Assembly (NCBI RefSeq): GCF_031326345.1
Contig: NZ_CP133671.1
Span: forward strand, 1,426,001-1,490,000
Length of the DNA: 64,000 nt
Source: Aureispira sp. CCB-E
GTDB lineage: Bacteria; Bacteroidota; Bacteroidia; Chitinophagales; Saprospiraceae
Direction of reading: 5' to 3'
Part shown: in pieces, positions 41,902-50,694 of the stretch
Layout: each line of letters starts with the position of its first letter
How positions within the stretch are numbered: position 1 is the first letter of the stretch
Notes under the pieces: generated by a model
Told to the model about the DNA's origin: nothing
Databases searched by the model: none
The model's input: only the letters and a program-made list of their open reading frames with translations
Position numbers and translations under genes: made by a program

Positions 41902-42978
41902 TTAAGAACAACTATAGGCATGGTAAAATGCTTTTCGAATCGTTACCAGTATTTTTTCTATCTGTATTTTATCTGGTTTTGAAGGAAGTGTAGAATGTTG
42001 ATACAGTTGCTCAATTTTTTTGACTTTCACTTCTGCCTTTTTCATCAATACTTCATATTCAAAAGTACCCTTTCGGATTTCTAGTAGCTCAGCTCGATTG
42101 GGACGATGTACTTGAATTTCACCAGTAGATAAAATTTCTTCTGCCATGTCCAACAGCCGAAACGTGTGCATAATATTTTTAGCATCATAATTTTTCCCAT
42201 GCGCAATAGTATTGGCATAGCGACTATCATTGCGGTTGTTGACCCATTCCCAATACTGCTTATAGTCTTTACAATATTTTTTATAACCATCCTTGTTAAA
42301 ATAAAGAACAGCTAATTGTCGTACCTCTTTAGGAATACTACTCAAAAGAATGGTATCAACCGTTTTAGGTTTGATAATGCCTTGAAAATTATATTGATTA
42401 TCAAAGTCGTAATATAAGCCATAAAGGTCTTTCATATGAGGAATATTGACCAATCCACAACGTTCTTGTATCAAACTGTGTTCGTTTAACCAATCTTGCA
42501 CTCCAATAGCACCTTGTTTGTATTGTACATAACAAAAATCCAAAACCCCTTTTCGTTGCTTTTCCATTGGATTCATGATCTTTTTGTTCAATCCCCTTGC
42601 TTTTTTGATTTGAGACATCGCATAACCTGCAAATGTATCCTTACATTGTTTGGATAGAAAAAGAGCTGCATCCAATTGCTTGAATAAGGGGTGTTCGTAT
42701 AAAATGCAATCCTTTGGAGTGTTTAGCAGTTCTAAAATATTGGGATTGTTCTTGTATAATAATTCCACAAAGCGTCCTAGCTCATAATAAACTTGATCAT
42801 TATTACGATCATTTACTTGAGGGATATAGTTCAAACCATAAAAAATATCTTGAGGGAGGACAAAGACTCCTTTTATATCTGTATCGGAAGTAGGCAAGGA
42901 TAAACCATAAGCCTTGCTGCCACTAATAGCTTCAAATAGAAGTAAATTTTGTGTTTTAAGGTCATTGATTGTCAACAT
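41902..42978 (-). CDS. RlaP/YcgL-type nucleotidyltransferase, larger paralogue
   Basis: 358 residues. The N-terminal motif ISGSKAYGLSLPTSDTDIKG (Gly20-Ser21, Asp32, Asp34) is the GS-x(10)-DxD signature of polymerase-beta-type nucleotidyltransferases, in the form seen in the PF10127 (RlaP) family. The rest is helical and Lys-rich. Members are predicted to transfer nucleotides to RNA or protein; RlaP is named for association with RNA ligases, but no ligase is in this window. The start overlaps the end of the next nucleotidyltransferase gene by 17 bases. Confidence 0.82.
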   Translation of the reverse strand: MLTINDLKTQNLLLFEAISGSKAYGLSLPTSDTDIKGVFVLPQDIFYGLNYIPQVNDRNNDQVYYELGRFVELLYKNNPNILELLNTPKDCILYEHPLFKQLDAALFLSKQCKDTFAGYAMSQIKKARGLNKKIMNPMEKQRKGVLDFCYVQYKQGAIGVQDWLNEHSLIQERCGLVNIPHMKDLYGLYYDFDNQYNFQGIIKPKTVDTILLSSIPKEVRQLAVLYFNKDGYKKYCKDYKQYWEWVNNRNDSRYANTIAHGKNYDAKNIMHTFRLLDMAEEILSTGEIQVHRPNRAELLEIRKGTFEYEVLMKKAEVKVKKIEQLYQHSTLPSKPDKIQIEKILVTIRKAFYHAYSCS

Positions 42979-43741
42979 AGGATAACTGAATAAATGCTCT
43001 AAATAAATGATTTAAAGGAGTACTAACAGCTTGCTCTGCGGATAAATCCTTAGCAAGAATAGCACATGCTGTCAACTGTTTTTGTATAAACGTTTGAATA
43101 ATAGGAACAGGTTCTGTTAGATCCCCTTCCAAAGCAGCTACTTTTTTACGAACTAATGTTTGAATCGCTGCATACAATGCTTCTTCTGATTTCAATTGTT
43201 CTAACAAGAGAGCAAACTCCATTGGAGGCACTGTTTTTTTATGACAAATCCAGTAGGCAGCTAGAAGTGGTCGCAAGACATAGAAGTATTTCTTAATGTC
43301 CATCAATCCATCAACCAAGCCTTTTTTAGAAGAATTTTTTGCTAAGCCCAAGTAATGAAAAGCCATAGAACGTGGCTTGAAGTAAGTATTGGTCAATTGC
43401 CATAATTCGGATCTAAAATTATAAGGATCTAGATATACGATAGGAGACTGCAACCATTCAAAAGGACTCGCATTAGACCCTCTAAATAAGCGAAGTGTTT
43501 TGCGCAATTCCCACCCCGTTAAATCTAGTTCGTGCTCGTCAATGGCAAAATCCAGCATATCTTTTGATTCATCTATAGAAAGGTACCAATCTTGAGAATG
43601 AACGTATATGAAACGGACATCCCAATCACTATTTGGCGAAGCAAATCCCCAAGCTCTGCTACCTGATTCACAAGCGTATAATATCGTGATGTTATGAATC
43701 GTTTCTAGTTCTTTTAAACGTTTTAGGATTAAATCTTTCAT
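42962..43741 (-). CDS. RlaP/YcgL-type nucleotidyltransferase, smaller paralogue
   Basis: 259 residues. ESGSRAWGFASPNSDWDVRF at 25-44 carries the catalytic Gly-Ser and the Asp39/Asp41 pair; a third acidic position is probably in ELDLTGWELRK. It is homologous to, but clearly diverged from, the downstream gene, with which it overlaps 17 bases, so the two are made together and may form a heteromer. Substrate unknown. The region upstream (43742-44156) leads to the divergent cysteine-attenuator leader. Confidence 0.84.
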   Translation of the reverse strand: MKDLILKRLKELETIHNITILYACESGSRAWGFASPNSDWDVRFIYVHSQDWYLSIDESKDMLDFAIDEHELDLTGWELRKTLRLFRGSNASPFEWLQSPIVYLDPYNFRSELWQLTNTYFKPRSMAFHYLGLAKNSSKKGLVDGLMDIKKYFYVLRPLLAAYWICHKKTVPPMEFALLLEQLKSEEALYAAIQTLVRKKVAALEGDLTEPVPIIQTFIQKQLTACAILAKDLSAEQAVSTPLNHLFRAFIQLSYVDNQ

Positions 43742-44082: not shown

Positions 44083-44113
44083 TTGCATTTTTAATTTTTA
44101 ATGTACAGCTTTG
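44083..44113 (+). promoter_or_regulatory. Candidate promoter of the sulfate-reduction operon leader
   Basis: TTG at 44083-44085 and TACAGCTTTG ending at 44113, an approximate TTG / TAnnTTTG pair with 18 bases between and two extra bases in the -7 box. It would start transcripts about 40 bases before the first leader peptide. Confidence 0.35.
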
Positions 44114-44156: not shown

Positions 44157-44222
44157 ATGAAAATTATCATTACATATTCAATCAATACTTGTTGTTGTTC
44201 TTGTCAGAAAAAACTCTGGTAG
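44157..44222 (+). CDS. Cysteine leader peptide 1
   Basis: 21-codon frame ATG to TAG encoding a peptide with the segment NTCCCSCQKKLW: three adjacent TGT codons, one Ser, and a fourth TGT (44190-44204). It is followed 48 bases later by an intrinsic terminator (44271-44308) and lies upstream of the sulfite-reductase operon. Four Cys in five codons in so short a frame, ahead of a cysteine-synthesis operon, is the signature of an amino-acid attenuator leader. Too short for standard ORF calling. Function inferred from architecture. Confidence 0.8.
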   Translation: MKIIITYSINTCCCSCQKKLW

Positions 44223-44282
44223 GAATGCGTTATCTTATATGTAATCATAATTAAATAAAATATAACCAAGAACCTTCTAGAG
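44214..44282 (+). promoter_or_regulatory. Predicted antiterminator pairing of attenuator 1
   Basis: CTCTGGTAGG (44214-44223, covering the leader stop codon) can pair with CCTTCTAGAG (44273-44282): nine pairs including one G-U, with one U-U mismatch. The second segment is the 5' arm of terminator 1, so the two structures exclude each other. A ribosome stalled on the Cys codons leaves 44214-44223 free; one that reaches the stop codon covers it. Confidence 0.6.
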
Positions 44283-44308
44283 ATACTAATTTCTAGAAGG
44301 TTTTTTTA
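44271..44308 (+). terminator. Attenuator terminator 1
   Basis: Perfect 11-bp stem AACCTTCTAGA / TCTAGAAGGTT, ten-base loop, seven T at 44301-44307. It lies after leader peptide 1 and before leader peptide 2, with no full-length gene ending here. Confidence 0.88.
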
Positions 44309-44370
44309 TTCTGTATCTATAAAATCCACGAAACGTTAAGAAATTGAGTGGAGTCAATCAATATCAATTT

Positions 44371-44472
44371 ATGTCTATTTATACTCTATATAACTGTTGT
44401 ACCTGCTGTTGTTGTTGCTTCAAGATAATTTCTTGTAAGTGGATGTGCACGTTATGGATAAACCTATATTGA
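44371..44472 (+). CDS. Cysteine leader peptide 2
   Basis: 33-codon frame ATG to TGA. Codons 9-16 read NCCTCCCCCF together with their neighbours: seven Cys within eight positions (44395-44418), with further Cys at 22 and 26, using both TGT and TGC. A terminator follows at 44502. It repeats the arrangement of leader 1, 63 bases beyond terminator 1, and directly precedes the sulfite-reductase gene. The peptide itself probably has no function beyond ribosome sensing of Cys-tRNA (inference). Confidence 0.82.
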   Translation: MSIYTLYNCCTCCCCCFKIISCKWMCTLWINLY

Positions 44473-44519
44473 TAGACAAATAATAGTATTCATTTAATGC
44501 AAAAGCCCTTTCAGGAAAT
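44428..44519 (+). promoter_or_regulatory. Predicted antiterminator pairing of attenuator 2
   Basis: ATTTCTTGTAAGTG (44428-44441), immediately after the Cys run, can pair with CCCTTTCAGGAAAT (44506-44519): 12 of 14 positions pair, including one G-U. The latter is the 5' arm of terminator 2. The position just downstream of the Cys codons fits classical ribosome-stalling attenuation. Confidence 0.6.
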
Positions 44520-44547
44520 ATTACTTCCTGAAAGGGCTTTCTCTTTT
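44502..44547 (+). terminator. Attenuator terminator 2
   Basis: Perfect 16-bp stem AAAGCCCTTTCAGGAA / TTCCTGAAAGGGCTTT, seven-base loop, then CTCTTTT. It sits 37 bases before the sulfite reductase start, so any transcript of that gene starting upstream must read through it. Confidence 0.9.
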
Positions 44548-44583
44548 ATTTCTTAACTGTGGATCACTAAAAACTTATATGTC

Positions 44584-46713
44584 ATGGCAACTAAATTAAA
44601 CTTAGAAGGTATTCAACCTGCTGATCAAAAAGACATTACTGAATTAAAACAAAAGATAACAGATGTTCAATTGGGACGGATTGATGAGGAACGTTTTAAA
44701 CATTATAGACTAACAAGAGGGGTATATGGACAACGTCAGTTGGGGGTGCAAATGTTTAGGACAAAAATTCCGTTTGGTCGTTTGACAACAGAGCAGTTGG
44801 ATGCTTTGGCAGATGCTTCAGAACGATATAGTACGGGAAATTTACATTTGACGACGCGTCAAAATATACAGTTGCATTATGTGAAGCTCAAGGATACACC
44901 TGCTTTATGGGCTGACTTATCTAGAGTTGGAGTGACTGCAATGGGGGCTTGTGGCAATACGATTCGAAATATTACGGCTTCTGCAAAAGCGGGTATTCAC
45001 CCTGACGAACTGTTTGATGTGTCTCCTTATGTACATGCTTTGTTTGAGTATTTTTTGAGAAATCCTATTGCGCAAGAAATGGGACGAAAAATCAAAATAG
45101 CCTTTTCTGCTACCAATGAAGATTCCGCTTTTGCTTACTTCCATGATTTTGGATTTATACCTCGAATTAAAAATGGAGAACGAGGCTTTAAGGTATTGTT
45201 AGGAGGAGGCTTGGGGGCACAAGCGATGATAGCACCAACTGTTTATGAATTTTTGCCGACGTATAAAGTCATTCCATTTGTAGAAGCTTCGATTCGAGTT
45301 TTTGATCGTTATGGAGAACGAGAAAAAAGAATGAAAGCTCGATTGAAATTTTTATTAAAAAAATATACAATCGCTGAGTTTTTAGAATTGGTAGAGCAAG
45401 AAACCCGTGCTTTAGCCAATGCTTCCATAGAAATTGAGGATAGTAATAATTGGCAACCAACGCCACCCGCTACGTTGGCAGAAGAAACTTCTATTAGCAT
45501 TCAAAATCCTACTGCCTATCAATTATGGCGCTTAACAAATGTTTTTGAACAAAAGCAAAAGGGGTATCATGGCGTACAACTGAAAATTCGACTCGGCAAC
45601 TTAAGTGCATCTTTGGCTCGACAATTAAGTGGAATTGTTCGAAAGTATGCTGCTAATGAATTGCGTTTGACGATTAATCAAGGAATTCTACTAAAATACA
45701 TTCCAACAGATTCTTTGCCTGCGATTTACAATGCCTTAGATGCTTTAGGCTTGGCAAACCCTGGCTTTGGTTCAATTGTAGACGTTACGGCTTGTCCTGG
45801 TACAGACACGTGTAATTTAGCGGTTAGTAATAGTACTGCTTTGGCGAATCAGTTAGAGCAAGTATTGTTAGAGAATTATGCGTATTGGATTGGAGATAAG
45901 GAGGTGAACATCAAAATTAGTGGTTGTATGAATGCATGTGGACAACATATGGCTGCTAATATTGGCTTTCATGGTAGTTCTATCAAAGTTGGAAAACAGG
46001 TGCTGCCTGCCATGCAAATTGTTTTAGGGGGTGGGGTAGATGAAACGGGTAAGGGGTTTATTGCAGAGAAAATTATTAAAATTCCAACGAAGAGGACTCC
46101 AATTGCCTTGACTTGGCTGCTAGATGATTATGAAGAAAAAGAACTTGGAGGAGAGCGTTTTAATGATTATGTCCAACGTCAAGGAAAAATGTATTTCTAC
46201 AACTTGCTGAAAGAACTAACAACAAAGGATGATCTACATTCTAGTGATTTTTGGGACTGGGGACAAGAGACGATTTATAAAAAAGAAATTGGAGTTGGTG
46301 AGTGTGCAGGAGTCGCATTTGATATGGTAACTACGATTTTGAACGATGCCAAAGAAAAAGTTGAATTAGGCCGCCAAGCATTAGAAGAAGAGTTGTTTGG
46401 AGACAGTGTTTATCTGAGTTATGGAGCTTTTGTGGTTGCTGCCAAAGCCATTTTATTGGGTGTTGATGTGAAGTGCAATACGCACATTGGGATTATCAAG
46501 GATTTTGATCAGCACTTGGTTGATACAGGTCTTTTTGATTTGGAGGTGCCTTTTGCAGAGTTGGTTTTGCAAATCAATCAGAACCAGCCAGAACCAGCCT
46601 TTGCGGAGCAATATTGGCAACAAGCAGCTGCCTTTTTAGAACAAGTATTTGCTTATAGAGAAGCACGTTTGGATGGAAATAAAGAAGTTATTAATGCCCA
46701 TTATAACGCCTAA
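44584..46713 (+). CDS. Siroheme sulfite (nitrite/sulfite) reductase with C-terminal extension
   Basis: 709 residues. Two ferredoxin-like half domains and two siroheme/[4Fe-4S] domains; the cluster and siroheme ligands are Cys404, Cys410 (ACPGTDTCN), Cys448 and Cys452 (SGCMNACGQH). STGNLHLTTRQNIQLH near 80-95 is the substrate-side motif. The final 150 residues, after LTWLLDDYEEKELGG, are additional helices resembling the HEPN-like tail seen on other Bacteroidota sulfite reductases. It reduces sulfite to sulfide for cysteine synthesis; neighbours make siroheme and reduce PAPS/APS, which favours sulfite over nitrite. First gene of the attenuator-controlled operon. Confidence 0.92.
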   Translation: MATKLNLEGIQPADQKDITELKQKITDVQLGRIDEERFKHYRLTRGVYGQRQLGVQMFRTKIPFGRLTTEQLDALADASERYSTGNLHLTTRQNIQLHYVKLKDTPALWADLSRVGVTAMGACGNTIRNITASAKAGIHPDELFDVSPYVHALFEYFLRNPIAQEMGRKIKIAFSATNEDSAFAYFHDFGFIPRIKNGERGFKVLLGGGLGAQAMIAPTVYEFLPTYKVIPFVEASIRVFDRYGEREKRMKARLKFLLKKYTIAEFLELVEQETRALANASIEIEDSNNWQPTPPATLAEETSISIQNPTAYQLWRLTNVFEQKQKGYHGVQLKIRLGNLSASLARQLSGIVRKYAANELRLTINQGILLKYIPTDSLPAIYNALDALGLANPGFGSIVDVTACPGTDTCNLAVSNSTALANQLEQVLLENYAYWIGDKEVNIKISGCMNACGQHMAANIGFHGSSIKVGKQVLPAMQIVLGGGVDETGKGFIAEKIIKIPTKRTPIALTWLLDDYEEKELGGERFNDYVQRQGKMYFYNLLKELTTKDDLHSSDFWDWGQETIYKKEIGVGECAGVAFDMVTTILNDAKEKVELGRQALEEELFGDSVYLSYGAFVVAAKAILLGVDVKCNTHIGIIKDFDQHLVDTGLFDLEVPFAELVLQINQNQPEPAFAEQYWQQAAAFLEQVFAYREARLDGNKEVINAHYNA

Positions 46714-46741: not shown

Positions 46742-47506
46742 ATGAAAAAACAACCAAAGATAACGTTAATGGGCGCAGGTCCAGGAAGTGCAGACTTGAT
46801 CACAATTAGAGGGCTAAGAGCCTTGAGAACAGCGGATGTCATTTTGTACGATGCTTTGGCAAATCCAGAACTGTTGCAGAATGTATCTGAGAATACACTA
46901 AAAATTAATGTAGGGAAACGAGCAAATAAACATCGCTTTAGCCAATCAGAGATCAATTTAATGACGGTAAGTTATGCCTTTTCACACGGACACGTGGTGC
47001 GATTGAAAGGAGGAGATCCTTTTATATTTGGAAGAGCATACGAAGAGTTGCAATATGCGACTTCTTTTAATATAGAGACAACTATTGTACCTGGTGTGTC
47101 GAGTAGTACTGCGTTGGTAGGTTTGCAAGAAGTACCTTTGACACATAGGAATTATAGTCAAGGATTTTGGGTATTGACAGGAACAACCAAGCATGGTGTA
47201 TTGCCCAAAGATTTTTATTTGGCAGCGCAATCAAATTCAACTCTGGTTATCCTAATGGGGCTTCGAAAATTGGCTGAAATAACAAGGGTTTTGCACCGCT
47301 ACGGAAAAGGAAATACACCCGTCATGGTGATTCAAAATGGCTCCTTACCCAATGAGCGTGTTGTATTGGGGACAGTAGATACAATTGTTGATATTGTAGA
47401 AAAAGAAGGGATTCAAACGCCTGCTGTTATTGTCGTTGGGCAAGTGGTTGCTTTACATCCCGACTTAGTGAAAAGTTATGCTATTACAGTCAATTCAAAA
47501 AATTAA
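46742..47506 (+). CDS. cobA: Uroporphyrinogen-III C-methyltransferase
   Basis: 254 residues. SUMT motifs: LMGAGPGSADLITIRGLRAL at 9-28, LKGGDPFIFGRAYEE, VPGVSSSTALVG, and the late PVMVIQNGSLPNERVVLGT. Uses SAM to methylate uroporphyrinogen III at C2 and C7, giving precorrin-2, the precursor of siroheme. It is 28 bases downstream of the sulfite reductase gene and 5 bases before the next siroheme gene, matching a dedicated siroheme supply for the reductase. Confidence 0.95.
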   Translation: MKKQPKITLMGAGPGSADLITIRGLRALRTADVILYDALANPELLQNVSENTLKINVGKRANKHRFSQSEINLMTVSYAFSHGHVVRLKGGDPFIFGRAYEELQYATSFNIETTIVPGVSSSTALVGLQEVPLTHRNYSQGFWVLTGTTKHGVLPKDFYLAAQSNSTLVILMGLRKLAEITRVLHRYGKGNTPVMVIQNGSLPNERVVLGTVDTIVDIVEKEGIQTPAVIVVGQVVALHPDLVKSYAITVNSKN

Positions 47507-47511
47507 AGAGT

Positions 47512-48093
47512 ATGAATACATTATATCCTGTTTTTCTAAAAGTTAATCAATTGCCTATCTTAATTGTTGGTGGTGGGCATGTAGGTTATGAAAAAATTAG
47601 TTTGATTCTAAAAAATAGCCCCGACGCAAGAATTATTTTGGTCGCTATAGAAATTTCTAAAAAAATTCGTTCGCTGCTGGTGGGGCGAGAACATCAAGTA
47701 ACCTTAATAGAACGACCTTTTCAATTGTATGATTTGGAAAAGAAAAGTTTGGTCATTGTAGCAACCAACAATCGTTCGTTGAATAAATATATTTGGAGTG
47801 AAGCCAAGTCAAGAGGTACTATTGTTAATGTTGCCGATACACCTTTGTTGTGTGACTTTTATTTGGGGTCTGTTGTTACCAAAGGAGATTTAAAAATAGC
47901 TATTTCTACCAATGGGAAATCTCCAACTTTTGCCAAAAGGTTGAGGCAGTTGCTCGAGAATATATTGCCAGAAGAAATTGAGGGACTTTTGGAGAATATG
48001 TATGATTTTAGACAAACATTGGGAGTTGATTTTGAACGAAAAGTTAAAATTTTAAATGCTTTGACAGAAAGCTTATTGGATAAATCTGCTTAG
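47512..48093 (+). CDS. Precorrin-2 dehydrogenase / siroheme synthase (CysG N-terminal type)
   Basis: 193 residues. The NAD-binding motif LPILIVGGGHVGYEKISLIL at 14-33, VIVATNNRSLNKYIWSEAKS and VADTPLLCDFYLGSVVTKGDLKIAISTNGKSP match the CysG N-terminal/Met8p family, which oxidises precorrin-2 to sirohydrochlorin and may insert iron. It completes siroheme synthesis with the upstream CobA. Length fits stand-alone members. Gene symbol left open because such proteins are named variously (sirC, met8, cysG N-terminal). Confidence 0.92.
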   Translation: MNTLYPVFLKVNQLPILIVGGGHVGYEKISLILKNSPDARIILVAIEISKKIRSLLVGREHQVTLIERPFQLYDLEKKSLVIVATNNRSLNKYIWSEAKSRGTIVNVADTPLLCDFYLGSVVTKGDLKIAISTNGKSPTFAKRLRQLLENILPEEIEGLLENMYDFRQTLGVDFERKVKILNALTESLLDKSA

Positions 48094-48148: not shown

Positions 48149-48415
48149 ATGAAAAAAGAACAAAAACGAAGAAGCCTTGTCAAAGCATTGACCTATAGAG
48201 TCGGGGCAACAATTGCTACGTTTTCCATTACATTGGCATTTACTGGCAATATTAAATTAGCAAGCACAATAGGTTTTTTAGATGGAATTGTAAAATTTCT
48301 ATTGTTTTATATCAATGAACGAATTTGGATTAGAACCAATTGGGGCTATCACACCAATCACCCTTCAATTTTATCAGATTATGAAAACCAAGAAGCCTTT
48401 TCCAAACTCAAATAG
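48149..48415 (+). CDS. DUF2061 membrane protein
   Basis: 88 residues with two hydrophobic segments (ATIATFSITLAFTG, IGFLDGIVKFLLFYINERIW), starting KRRSLVKALTYRVGATI, the usual DUF2061 opening. Frequently encoded next to cysH and sulfate-assimilation genes in Bacteroidota, but its function is not established. Its last 35 bases overlap the cysH start region, so translational coupling is likely. Confidence 0.88.
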   Translation: MKKEQKRRSLVKALTYRVGATIATFSITLAFTGNIKLASTIGFLDGIVKFLLFYINERIWIRTNWGYHTNHPSILSDYENQEAFSKLK

Positions 48416-49085
48416 TCCTATTGATGATAAGGATATCGCAAGCCTAAACGAGCAGTTTAAACCATTGCCTCCTATAGAGCGCATCAAACTTTTGTACCAT
48501 CTATTTGATGTGAAATCTATCTTATATACCTCTTCTTTTGGGACAAAGTCAGCCTTGTTGCTTTATTGGATTAGTAATCTTCAAGCTGCACAGAAAATTC
48601 ATTTTCTGGATACTGGATACCATTTTGAGGAAACGCTAAGATACAAAGATGCATTGGTTCAGTCTTTAAATTTGGAAGTCGTTCATTTGAAACCAGAAAC
48701 AACAGCCCATCAGGCAACTTTAGAGGCTGAAATGTGGAAGAATAATACTAGTAAGTGTTGTTATATTAATAAAGTAGTGCCACTAGAATTGGTGAAGTTA
48801 GATTATGATATTTGGATTTCAGGTCTGATGGCTTATCAAACTCCTTTTAGAAGAAACTTAGAGGTATTTGAGAAAAAGGATAATATCTTGAAATTTTATC
48901 CATTAATAGATCTTTCAGAATCAGATTTTAACACAGCCTACCAAGCAACGAATTTGCCCCCTCATCCATTAGAGGTATTAGGGTATCATTCAATAGGATG
49001 TTTGCATTGCACGCAAAGAGGCAAGGGGCGTAGTGGTCGTTGGAGTAGAAGCTCAAAAACAGAGTGCGGTCTGCATTTTAACTAA
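48381..49085 (+). CDS. cysH: Phosphoadenylyl/adenylyl-sulfate reductase
   Basis: 234 residues from the ATG at 48381 (MKTKKPFPNS); an in-frame ATG at 48315 would overlap DUF2061 by 101 bases and add no conserved sequence. SSFGTKSALLLYWI is the PP-loop-type nucleotide region; Cys126-Cys127, Cys207 and Cys210 are the [4Fe-4S] ligands of APS-reductase-type enzymes, and Cys229 in the C-terminal ECGLH is catalytic. It releases sulfite from APS/PAPS using thioredoxin. The Fe-S Cys set suggests APS as substrate. No sulfate adenylyltransferase genes (cysD/cysN) are in the window. Last gene of the operon. Confidence 0.93.
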   Translation: MKTKKPFPNSNSPIDDKDIASLNEQFKPLPPIERIKLLYHLFDVKSILYTSSFGTKSALLLYWISNLQAAQKIHFLDTGYHFEETLRYKDALVQSLNLEVVHLKPETTAHQATLEAEMWKNNTSKCCYINKVVPLELVKLDYDIWISGLMAYQTPFRRNLEVFEKKDNILKFYPLIDLSESDFNTAYQATNLPPHPLEVLGYHSIGCLHCTQRGKGRSGRWSRSSKTECGLHFN

Positions 49086-49329: not shown

Positions 49330-50694
49330 ATGTATTATAATAAACTACAAGATACAGAAAATATCAATAAAGAGAATGGAGCAGGATGGACAATTTTACA
49401 TCGCTCACATCAATACTTGTCTAAATTACTCTTAAAACTAGATGAAGATTTAGATAAACGTTTGGTGCGTACATTTTATAATGTATTTATAGCAGTTTTA
49501 ATGTCAAGAAATCGTTCAGATGCCTTGCTATTGACCGAGTTAGGCGCCTTAGTTCTTGGTCCTAAAAAAGCTAAAGCAGGAGTAAAACGTGTGAGTAATT
49601 TATTTCGCAGTAAGAAATGGGATTACCAAATAATAGATCAACATTTAGAAGAAGAGTTTGTTGCTAGATTGGAAGATAAGCAAGAATTAGGAAAAAGTTG
49701 GTTGATGCTCTGGGATGATAGTGTACTAGAAAAGCCCGAAAGTTGGTTTAGTGAAGGGCTAAGCCCAGTACACAGTAAGAAGAGTCAACGGTTAACACGA
49801 ATAAAACCAGGTTATTATGATAAGCATAAACGTATTTGTGTTCCTGGATTTGAGTGGTCGGGTGCAGTTTTAACCTCCTTGCATGCGAAGGAAGTTCCTC
49901 AAATATCTAAAATGCGTTGGTTTGCCACAAGAGGTAAACATAAAGAGGAAAGTTCGGAGATATTTTATCGGATGTTTAATGCTCTAAATAAACGTGTAGC
50001 ATCTACACAAGCGGATGTGCTTCATGTCTTTGATAGAGGTTATGCCAATGGTGTTTTTGTAGAACGTATGCTCAACTTTAAAGCAAAGTTTCTAGTTCGT
50101 TGGAAAAAGCTTAATAATTTGATTGATGAAAATGGAGTGAAGAAAAATACCTATCGTCTTTCTCTGGGACAAAAAGCTAAGGATCATCGCCTAATATGGG
50201 ATAATATTCGGAAAGAAACGAGAAGCGTCAAAATACTCTACCGAAAAGTAGCTCATCCATGGTTTCCCCAAACAGATTTATACCTCGTTATTGTTCGTGA
50301 TAAACGCAAAGGCACTTCTCCTATGTACTTGCTAACCAATGAAGTAATTGACACTTGTGGCAAAGCATGGGAAATGTTCTATTCTTATATGAAACGATGG
50401 GATATTGAACAGGTTTTTAGATATGGAAAATCAGAGTTGGGTATGGAGTCTCCTAGGCTTTGGTTCTTTGAAAATCGTCTTAAAATGTTGATGTTAGTTA
50501 CTTTGGTAATGGATTTTTTGTTTCGGATGTTGAGGAACTTTAGAGCAACTATGACTACTATCATTAATATTTGGTGTCCTAGAACAGGAAATCGGCACCG
50601 AAAGACTTCGATGCCGATTTACAGACTTAGAAAAGCCATCCATTTTATCTTAACATTTTTATTTTGTCAATGTGCTTTAGAAAATTCGGGATGA
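49330..50694 (+). CDS. IS4-family DDE transposase
   Basis: 454 residues, apparently intact. The RNase-H-like catalytic core has Asp129/Asp130 (MLWDDSVLEK), Asp235 (HVFDRGYANG) and the IS4 signature Y-(2)-R-(3)-E-(6)-K at Tyr353, Arg356, Glu360 and Lys367 (YMKRWDIEQVFRYGK). N-terminal helical region about 20-110 is probably the DNA-binding part. Reading frame spans almost the whole element, the stop lying inside the right inverted repeat. Likely still active. Confidence 0.94.
   Translation: MYYNKLQDTENINKENGAGWTILHRSHQYLSKLLLKLDEDLDKRLVRTFYNVFIAVLMSRNRSDALLLTELGALVLGPKKAKAGVKRVSNLFRSKKWDYQIIDQHLEEEFVARLEDKQELGKSWLMLWDDSVLEKPESWFSEGLSPVHSKKSQRLTRIKPGYYDKHKRICVPGFEWSGAVLTSLHAKEVPQISKMRWFATRGKHKEESSEIFYRMFNALNKRVASTQADVLHVFDRGYANGVFVERMLNFKAKFLVRWKKLNNLIDENGVKKNTYRLSLGQKAKDHRLIWDNIRKETRSVKILYRKVAHPWFPQTDLYLVIVRDKRKGTSPMYLLTNEVIDTCGKAWEMFYSYMKRWDIEQVFRYGKSELGMESPRLWFFENRLKMLMLVTLVMDFLFRMLRNFRATMTTIINIWCPRTGNRHRKTSMPIYRLRKAIHFILTFLFCQCALENSG

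Follow-up and report, generated by a model that had tools for sequence, protein, structure and literature searches.

The leader region and the operon

The window, as we call the whole analysed stretch of 64,000 nucleotides of Aureispira sp. CCB-E DNA, carries on its forward strand a gene of the sulfite reductase type, two genes of siroheme synthesis and cysH. Directly ahead of them are two short frames with runs of Cys codons, each followed by a strong intrinsic terminator (Table 1). This arrangement had been read from the letters of the DNA in an original prediction, with which the domain searches agreed; the matches of the gene at 44584 to the NCBIfam sulfite and nitrite reductase equivalogs stay below cut-off, so the 'sulfite' assignment rests on the Pfam domains and the neighbouring genes.

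Table 1 Features of the leader region and of the genes behind it (positions in the window)
Feature	Position	Strand	Details	Basis
Candidate promoter	44083-44113	+	TTG at 44083-44085, spacer of 20 nt, CAGCTTTG at 44106-44113 (7/8 to TAnnTTTG)	
Leader peptide 1	44157-44222	+	MKIIITYSINTCCCSCQKKLW, then stop	read directly from the sequence
Control codons, leader 1	44190-44204	+	TGT TGT TGT TCT TGT (CCCSC)	
1:2 hairpin, unit 1	44197-44226	+	44197-44208 with 44215-44226; sequesters the antiterminator segment	MFE, centroid, ribosome-position model
Antiterminator segment 2, unit 1	44214-44223	+	pairs with 44273-44282, 9/10	pairing test, ribosome-position model
Intrinsic terminator 1	44268-44312	+	stem 44268-44305 (17 pairs), U-rich tail after it	terminator scan, fold
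Leader peptide 2	44371-44472	+	MSIYTLYNCCTCCCCCFKIISCKWMCTLWINLY, then stop	read directly from the sequence
Control codons, leader 2	44395-44418	+	CCTCCCCC	
1:2 hairpin, unit 2	44417-44440	+	44417-44425 with 44431-44440	fold
Antiterminator segment 2, unit 2	44428-44443	+	44428-44439, extends to 44443; about 12 pairs with 44508-44519	pairing test, ribosome-position model
Intrinsic terminator 2	44502-44550	+	stem 44502-44540 (16 pairs), U-rich tail after it	terminator scan, fold
NirA/sulfite-reductase-type gene	44584-46713	+	first in the putatively regulated operon	Pfam NIR_SIR 5.3e-47, NIR_SIR_ferr 1.7e-39
Uroporphyrinogen-III C-methyltransferase (SUMT)	46742-47506	+	siroheme	TIGR01469 above cut-off
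CysG N-terminal domain protein	47512-48093	+	siroheme	TIGR01470 above cut-off
CysH, phosphoadenylyl-sulfate reductase	48315-49085	+		NF002537 above cut-off; PF01507

Both frames were found exactly where they had been predicted, with four of five codons (44190-44198 and 44202-44204) and seven of eight codons of the respective run coding for Cys; they thus share with the leaders of ribosome-mediated transcription attenuators a run of codons for the amino acid of the pathway. An in-frame non-ATG start at 44344 would lengthen the second leader to 42 amino acids, if used. In a same-genus relative the first frame is kept with one 3-nt indel, and the second leader is conserved as well. The terminators lie a few bases from the predicted coordinates and, as in attenuators of this type, between leader and first gene. 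The terminator scan, which covers loops of 3-10 nt and lets long-loop terminators escape, called three terminator-like sites in 1.5 kb on both strands (0.4 ± 0.7 in shuffled sequences), the third of which (44196-44227) overlaps the 1:2 hairpin of unit 1. The pairings of the segments behind the Cys runs with the 5' arms of the terminators, predicted at nine and twelve pairs, are present where they had been placed. The 1:2 hairpins of both units and the late stop of leader 2 come in addition to the original prediction. Unit 1 contains all three classical pairings, 1:2, 2:3 and 3:4, the last being the terminator; in unit 2 the 1:2 hairpin is weaker than 2:3 in the ribosome-position model as long as the 3' arm is not made. 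Both units fold better than dinucleotide shuffles, with z values of -6.3 (unit 1) and -5.5 (unit 2) and none of 200 shuffles reaching the native value.

The operon is followed by an IS4-like transposase gene (49330-50694; below NCBIfam cut-offs, just above those of Pfam), and upstream of the leaders two adjoining RlaP-domain genes (RNA repair pathway polymerase beta family; 41902-43741, minus strand) point away from them. The host genome has 7.39 Mb in two contigs. Among eight genomes searched in the genus, the reductase was present at E ≤ 1e-30 only in this genome and in G003, the two largest. A search for TGY runs in the own genome gave 170 matches, against 56 for a control pattern; in G026, all four matches to five consecutive Cys codons are located in the two leaders. 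Upstream of hisG in the window's genome (L249) lie a His-rich frame, MFLSNAHTHHIHHLLHCQSSEATVCVHHSTHHNFHS, and behind it a terminator, likely a histidine attenuator as judged from this arrangement. Before cysD of the window's genome no Cys leader was present in the 1.5 kb scanned.

Conservation of leader and terminator

The reductase was present in 14 of 60 relatives, the window's genome counted, and in 95 of 396 Bacteroidia genomes. The class sample used comprised 93 loci (90 fetched and three already in hand), with two genomes having a partial or weak reductase match (G123, G298) kept outside it, and a set of named loci was drawn from the best 80 of at least 588 matches, of which 74 were used; the three sets overlap. 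Dropped before counting were three loci from genomes already represented (L024, L041 and L069, same genomes as L007, L014 and L015), a fragment (L017) and three named loci with less than 200 nt upstream (L030, L073, L086). Two duplicates, L092 and L095 (of L206 and L175), are inside the 700-nt counts and outside the later unit analyses.

The 700 nt upstream of the reductase were scanned with a strict rule demanding four Cys in seven residues, a frame of 8-70 amino acids and a terminator near its stop. Among the 14 relatives, counting the window, 10 had such a leader with terminator; so did 13 of the 93 loci of the class sample and 17 of the 74 named loci from the best 80 of at least 588 matches; two strict units were present in five, three and four loci, respectively. 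The reverse strand yielded none in any of the three sets, nor did ten rounds of shuffling in each. With a loose rule (three Cys in seven) plus terminator the counts rose to 11, 23 and 23 loci, reverse strand and shuffles again giving zero. When the terminator was ignored, strict leaders were found in 10, 18 and 21 loci, and the reverse strand had them in 0, 3 and 0. A strict leader plus terminator was missing from the 700 nt in 80 of the 93 class-sample and 57 of the 74 named loci; in these the operon may start elsewhere or be under other control. The original prediction had stated that unconserved Cys runs or alternative pairings in relatives would speak against it; both are conserved.

Coupled change of segment and terminator arm

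The sets provided 75 units with at least three Cys in seven residues, those with less than 20 nt between Cys run and terminator being left out. Removal of ten units more than 80% similar to another left 65 units from 50 loci. The segment behind the Cys run paired with its own terminator arm plus loop better than dinucleotide shuffles (p < 0.05) in 42 of the 65 units (Fisher 8e-41), the remaining 23 lying above 0.05. With segments from all the other loci swapped in for comparison, 13 of 65 units reached p < 0.05 (Fisher 2e-15), and a control pairing with the 3' arm did so in 6 of 65 (Fisher 0.13). The units share descent, and the Fisher values therefore overstate their independence, which the swap test meets in part. 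For the window's own two units, p was 0.024 and 0.040 against shuffles and 0.14 each against swaps. An earlier, overlapping set of 41 units, of which four, at L071 and L097, lie a long way upstream of other genes, had given Fisher values of 1.3e-11 (shuffles) and 1.5e-4 (swaps). The segment changes with its own arm, as the original prediction of a ribosome-mediated cysteine attenuator in Bacteroidota had asked of relatives; across the 65 units a conserved antiterminator with coupled change, a mark of this class of attenuators, was observed.

The position of the segment fits a ribosome. In 29 of 65 units the last Cys codon and the segment start are 10-15 nt apart, the commonest distance; among the 52 units with at least four Cys in seven, this holds for 25 (arm alone) or 27 (arm plus loop), and about 5 of 52 are expected from the near-flat distribution of shuffles. 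A ribosome is given a reach of 12-15 nt from the P site in the part of PMC3641672 used here, and the segment start is, by this measure, just past the place where a stalled ribosome would end.

Ribosome positions and the modelled switch

A ribosome-position model was applied in which the ribosome covers, by our choice of footprint, 13 nt upstream and 15 nt downstream of the P site. Before the 3' arm of the terminator is made, the antiterminator of unit 1 has 9.6-9.7 pairs while the ribosome is on one of the first three Cys codons and 8.5 while it is on the fourth, none with the ribosome at the stop codon and 2.0 without a ribosome. In the model, unit 1 is a textbook switch: a stalled ribosome frees the segment and a ribosome at the stop covers it. 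Over the larger set, 46 of 65 units had at least five antiterminator pairs with the ribosome at the first and last Cys and lost more than half of them at the stop, a behaviour seen in 5-16 units in each of eight shuffled sets.

Unit 2 behaves differently. Modelled before the 3' arm, it has 11.2-12.4 antiterminator pairs with the ribosome at the Cys codons, 10.2 at the stop and 12.1 without a ribosome. Its stop codon follows the pairing segment at a distance of 29-44 nt (about 30), too far for a ribosome halted at this stop to cover the segment. The antiterminator thus persists with the ribosome at the stop or absent, and unit 2 is no clean equilibrium switch; the same persistence at the stop is modelled for the second units of L004, L005 and L031. 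A ribosome between Cys run and stop, however, abolishes the pairing (1.9 and 0.9 pairs), and only there does unit 2 show a covered segment in the model. Once the full terminator of either window unit is present, it beats the antiterminator at every ribosome position tested; the switch must therefore be kinetic. Unit 2 probably works in this way, with a ribosome that would have to sit between Cys run and stop as the terminator arm emerges.

The distant stop and the lack of a clean modelled switch at that stop give some room to the view that only unit 1 is a cysteine switch, with unit 2 degenerate or of another kind, e.g., a plain partial terminator or a translation-dependent element. The sequence of unit 2 makes this unlikely. 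It has seven Cys codons in eight. The same-genus relative retains this run, with changes at third positions, has an identical terminator arm and shows two base differences in the segment, which preserve the pairing (dG -12.4 and -15.3). The loss of pairing under a ribosome between run and stop likewise speaks for a functional second unit, and two-unit leaders recur in distant loci.

Two units, probably in series

Between the window and the same-genus relative, frames, pairing segments and terminators are more conserved than the surrounding and intervening sequence. Upstream of leader 1 a candidate promoter was located (Table 1). We take the consensus of the -7 box of Bacteroidetes to be TAnnTTTG; the box of the window is one base off, and the same-genus relative has an exact match at the aligned place. 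Exact boxes within 150 nt before the first leader were present in 14 of 48 loci, against 5.2 expected from shuffles. If each unit had a promoter of its own, the attenuators would act in parallel rather than in series, and an exact -7 box between the units was indeed seen in 1 of 11 loci (0.3 expected). The gap between terminator 1 and leader 2, taken at its longest reading, is just 14-64 nt in the 11 two-unit loci scanned (L174, L180 and L188 were left out), and in the comparison with the same-genus relative it is less conserved than either unit. Separate promoters are hence improbable, and the distribution of boxes and gaps favours one promoter and serial action.

The original prediction had excluded a recent copy since the two leaders differ in sequence. 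Across 15 two-unit loci, a first unit is more similar to other first units than to second units (permutation p 0.0002; L004, L166, L171 and L188 left out); the same holds if only the nine loci from the window's part of the tree are taken (p 0.004) and if all 19 loci are used (p 0.0005). The likeness of first units across loci indicates that the pair is old in part. The effect is modest: mean similarity over 19 loci was 0.245 within a locus, 0.230 between same positions and 0.201 between different positions across loci, and the slightly highest value within the locus makes local copying or a shared make-up possible. The claim is thus modestly favoured, and recent duplication was rejected, if weakly, on the match of first units with first units.

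In a FastTree phylogeny of 175 rows, 19 rows were two-unit loci, one being a repeat listing; at least four rows are such repeats (L174, L176, L180 and L188 of L050, L077, L084 and L094). The two-unit label changes 14 times, at least 12 changes being forced by well-supported branches, so doubling was gained or lost often; leader labels cluster on the tree, and the count takes gains and losses together. Tandem pairs of Cys leaders with terminators were also seen farther from genes, in L097 (664-938) 848 nt before a gene that by eye resembles CysD, and in L071 (421-679) 385 nt before the next gene.

Interpretation of the leader

Two other explanations can be dealt with briefly. Short Cys-rich metal-binding peptides and precursors of modified peptides exist, and the frames might encode such a functional peptide, with terminators merely bounding a small gene. 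This was rejected as very improbable: among terminator-bearing leaders the Cys run recurs and the remaining peptide varies, a peptide gene would have no use for the pairing that the RNA past the run makes, at a preferred and ribosome-sized distance, with the terminator arm, and the frames stand directly upstream of sulfite reductase. Premature terminators with alternative pairing also occur in riboswitches and T-box RNAs; a ligand-binding RNA was rejected as extremely improbable, because a search of the window against Rfam gave no family at gathering score and conservation against the same-genus relative is highest in the blocks formed by frames, pairing segments and terminators.

We therefore regard the region, with high probability, as one leader transcript on which two transcription attenuators, both ribosome-mediated and cysteine-sensing, act in series. 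The frames, terminators and alternative pairings are present, conserved and change in a coupled manner; translation of the frames, stalling on the Cys codons, a single promoter and the multiplication of the units are presumed in this reading. With Cys-tRNA plentiful, the ribosome would pass the Cys run and keep the segment from the 5' arm of the terminator, each terminator would form, and the polymerase would face two stops, expression being the product of two read-through probabilities. With Cys-tRNA scarce, the ribosome would stall on the Cys codons with its leading edge just short of segment 2; the freed segment would capture the terminator arm, and the polymerase would continue into the genes for sulfite reductase, siroheme synthesis and CysH. 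In unit 1 without a ribosome, the 1:2 hairpin would lead to termination by default. Very probably, then, the sulfur-assimilation genes would be under cysteine control and switched on only when cysteine is short.

Other leader forms

Cys leaders of other forms were observed in the same loci sets. One, often with the motif IYIKYEYCCCC or a similar one, occupies the interval from sulfite reductase to SUMT, at 53-84 nt ahead of the SUMT start; no terminator was called for it (L066, L068, L070, L090, L168, L179, L182, L183, L192, L195, L200). In several of them, e.g., L066, L070, L090 and L168, the Cys codons have a complement close to the SUMT start, a stretch of the type AACAACAA, and translation may be the step under control. 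In L090 there is, in addition, a hairpin with a long loop and a T run, beyond the loop range of the terminator scan. In another form, for which no terminator was called, the leader closes with a Cys run that reaches the stop or falls a few residues short of it, and 99-404 nt separate it from the next gene: a ferredoxin-like gene, named by eye, in L026, L027, L028, L029 and L038, a cysH relative in L205, L216 and L247, and sulfite reductase in L043, L051 and L052. These leaders resemble the polycysteine form of Actinobacteria.

In the positions adjoining Cys, the leaders are markedly rich in Met, with 90 of 271 neighbouring residues against 108 of 1648 elsewhere (p 1.5e-30, related leaders counted), and it stands inside the Cys run in 25 of 71 leaders; examples are L167, L204, L233, L237, L239, L241 and others. 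The enrichment suggests a joint sensing of Cys and Met, and some Met before the Cys run may be the true start codon.

Relation to known systems and implications

The class of mechanism is already known. With attenuators of the trp/his type the leader shares control codons for the product of the pathway, the pairings 1:2, 2:3 and 3:4 and a terminator before the first gene, fully so in unit 1; it differs from them in the amino acid, cysteine, in having two complete units, in the stop of unit 2 far downstream of the segment and in its occurrence in Bacteroidota. Polycysteine leaders of Actinobacteria, reportedly treated by Canestrari in 2020, have in common with it a short Cys-run frame before cysteine operons. 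For mycobacterial polycysteine leaders, the sections of PMC1262725 used here describe no conserved terminator hairpins and suggest Rho, and for those of M. smegmatis the portion of PMC13236596 used describes translation attenuation. The leader of the window, in contrast to what these sections describe, has an intrinsic terminator and an antiterminator with each frame, and both terminators are strong. The uORFC-8-2 motif before cysS likewise joins a leader frame containing Cys codons to an intrinsic terminator behind it; as presented in the excerpt of PMC8632094, it differs in having two Cys codons, in preceding cysteinyl-tRNA synthetase and in belonging to a proteobacterial class. In Salmonella, the mgtCBR transcript has two leader frames, which sense ATP and proline, and its attenuators are, in the part of PMC3641672 used here, unlike intrinsic terminators; here both units combine a Cys run with an intrinsic terminator and, judged by codon content, would answer to the same amino acid. 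For Flavobacterium psychrophilum, which belongs to the same phylum, there are hints that leader peptides attenuate amino-acid operons; the elements concerned precede pheA, hisG and others, and the section of that source on 5' cis-regulatory RNA names no cysteine leader (PMC9723704).

Among the matches listed in a search of titles and abstracts of the open literature, none dealt with cysteine leaders in Bacteroidota or with serial attenuators for one amino acid; a comparative study of bacterial attenuation from 2010, cited in PMC4833913, may hold such predictions. As far as the open literature searched shows, cysteine sensing with intrinsic terminators in Bacteroidota, its breadth and the repeated doubling are new. 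A wider reading, which we put forward tentatively at somewhat less than even chances, is that of a phylum-wide leader regulon for sulfur amino acids in Bacteroidota, in which serial cysteine attenuators multiply read-through, mixed Cys/Met runs provide joint sensing in many lineages, and an intra-operon form pairs Cys codons with the start region of the next gene.

The leader offers a mechanism by which cysteine would control assimilatory sulfate reduction in Bacteroidota. Read-through of two attenuators in tandem should square the off state and make for a sharper response, which offers a natural test of why attenuators for the same signal would be doubled in evolution. Since relatives with one unit and with two units both exist, a direct comparison would be possible.
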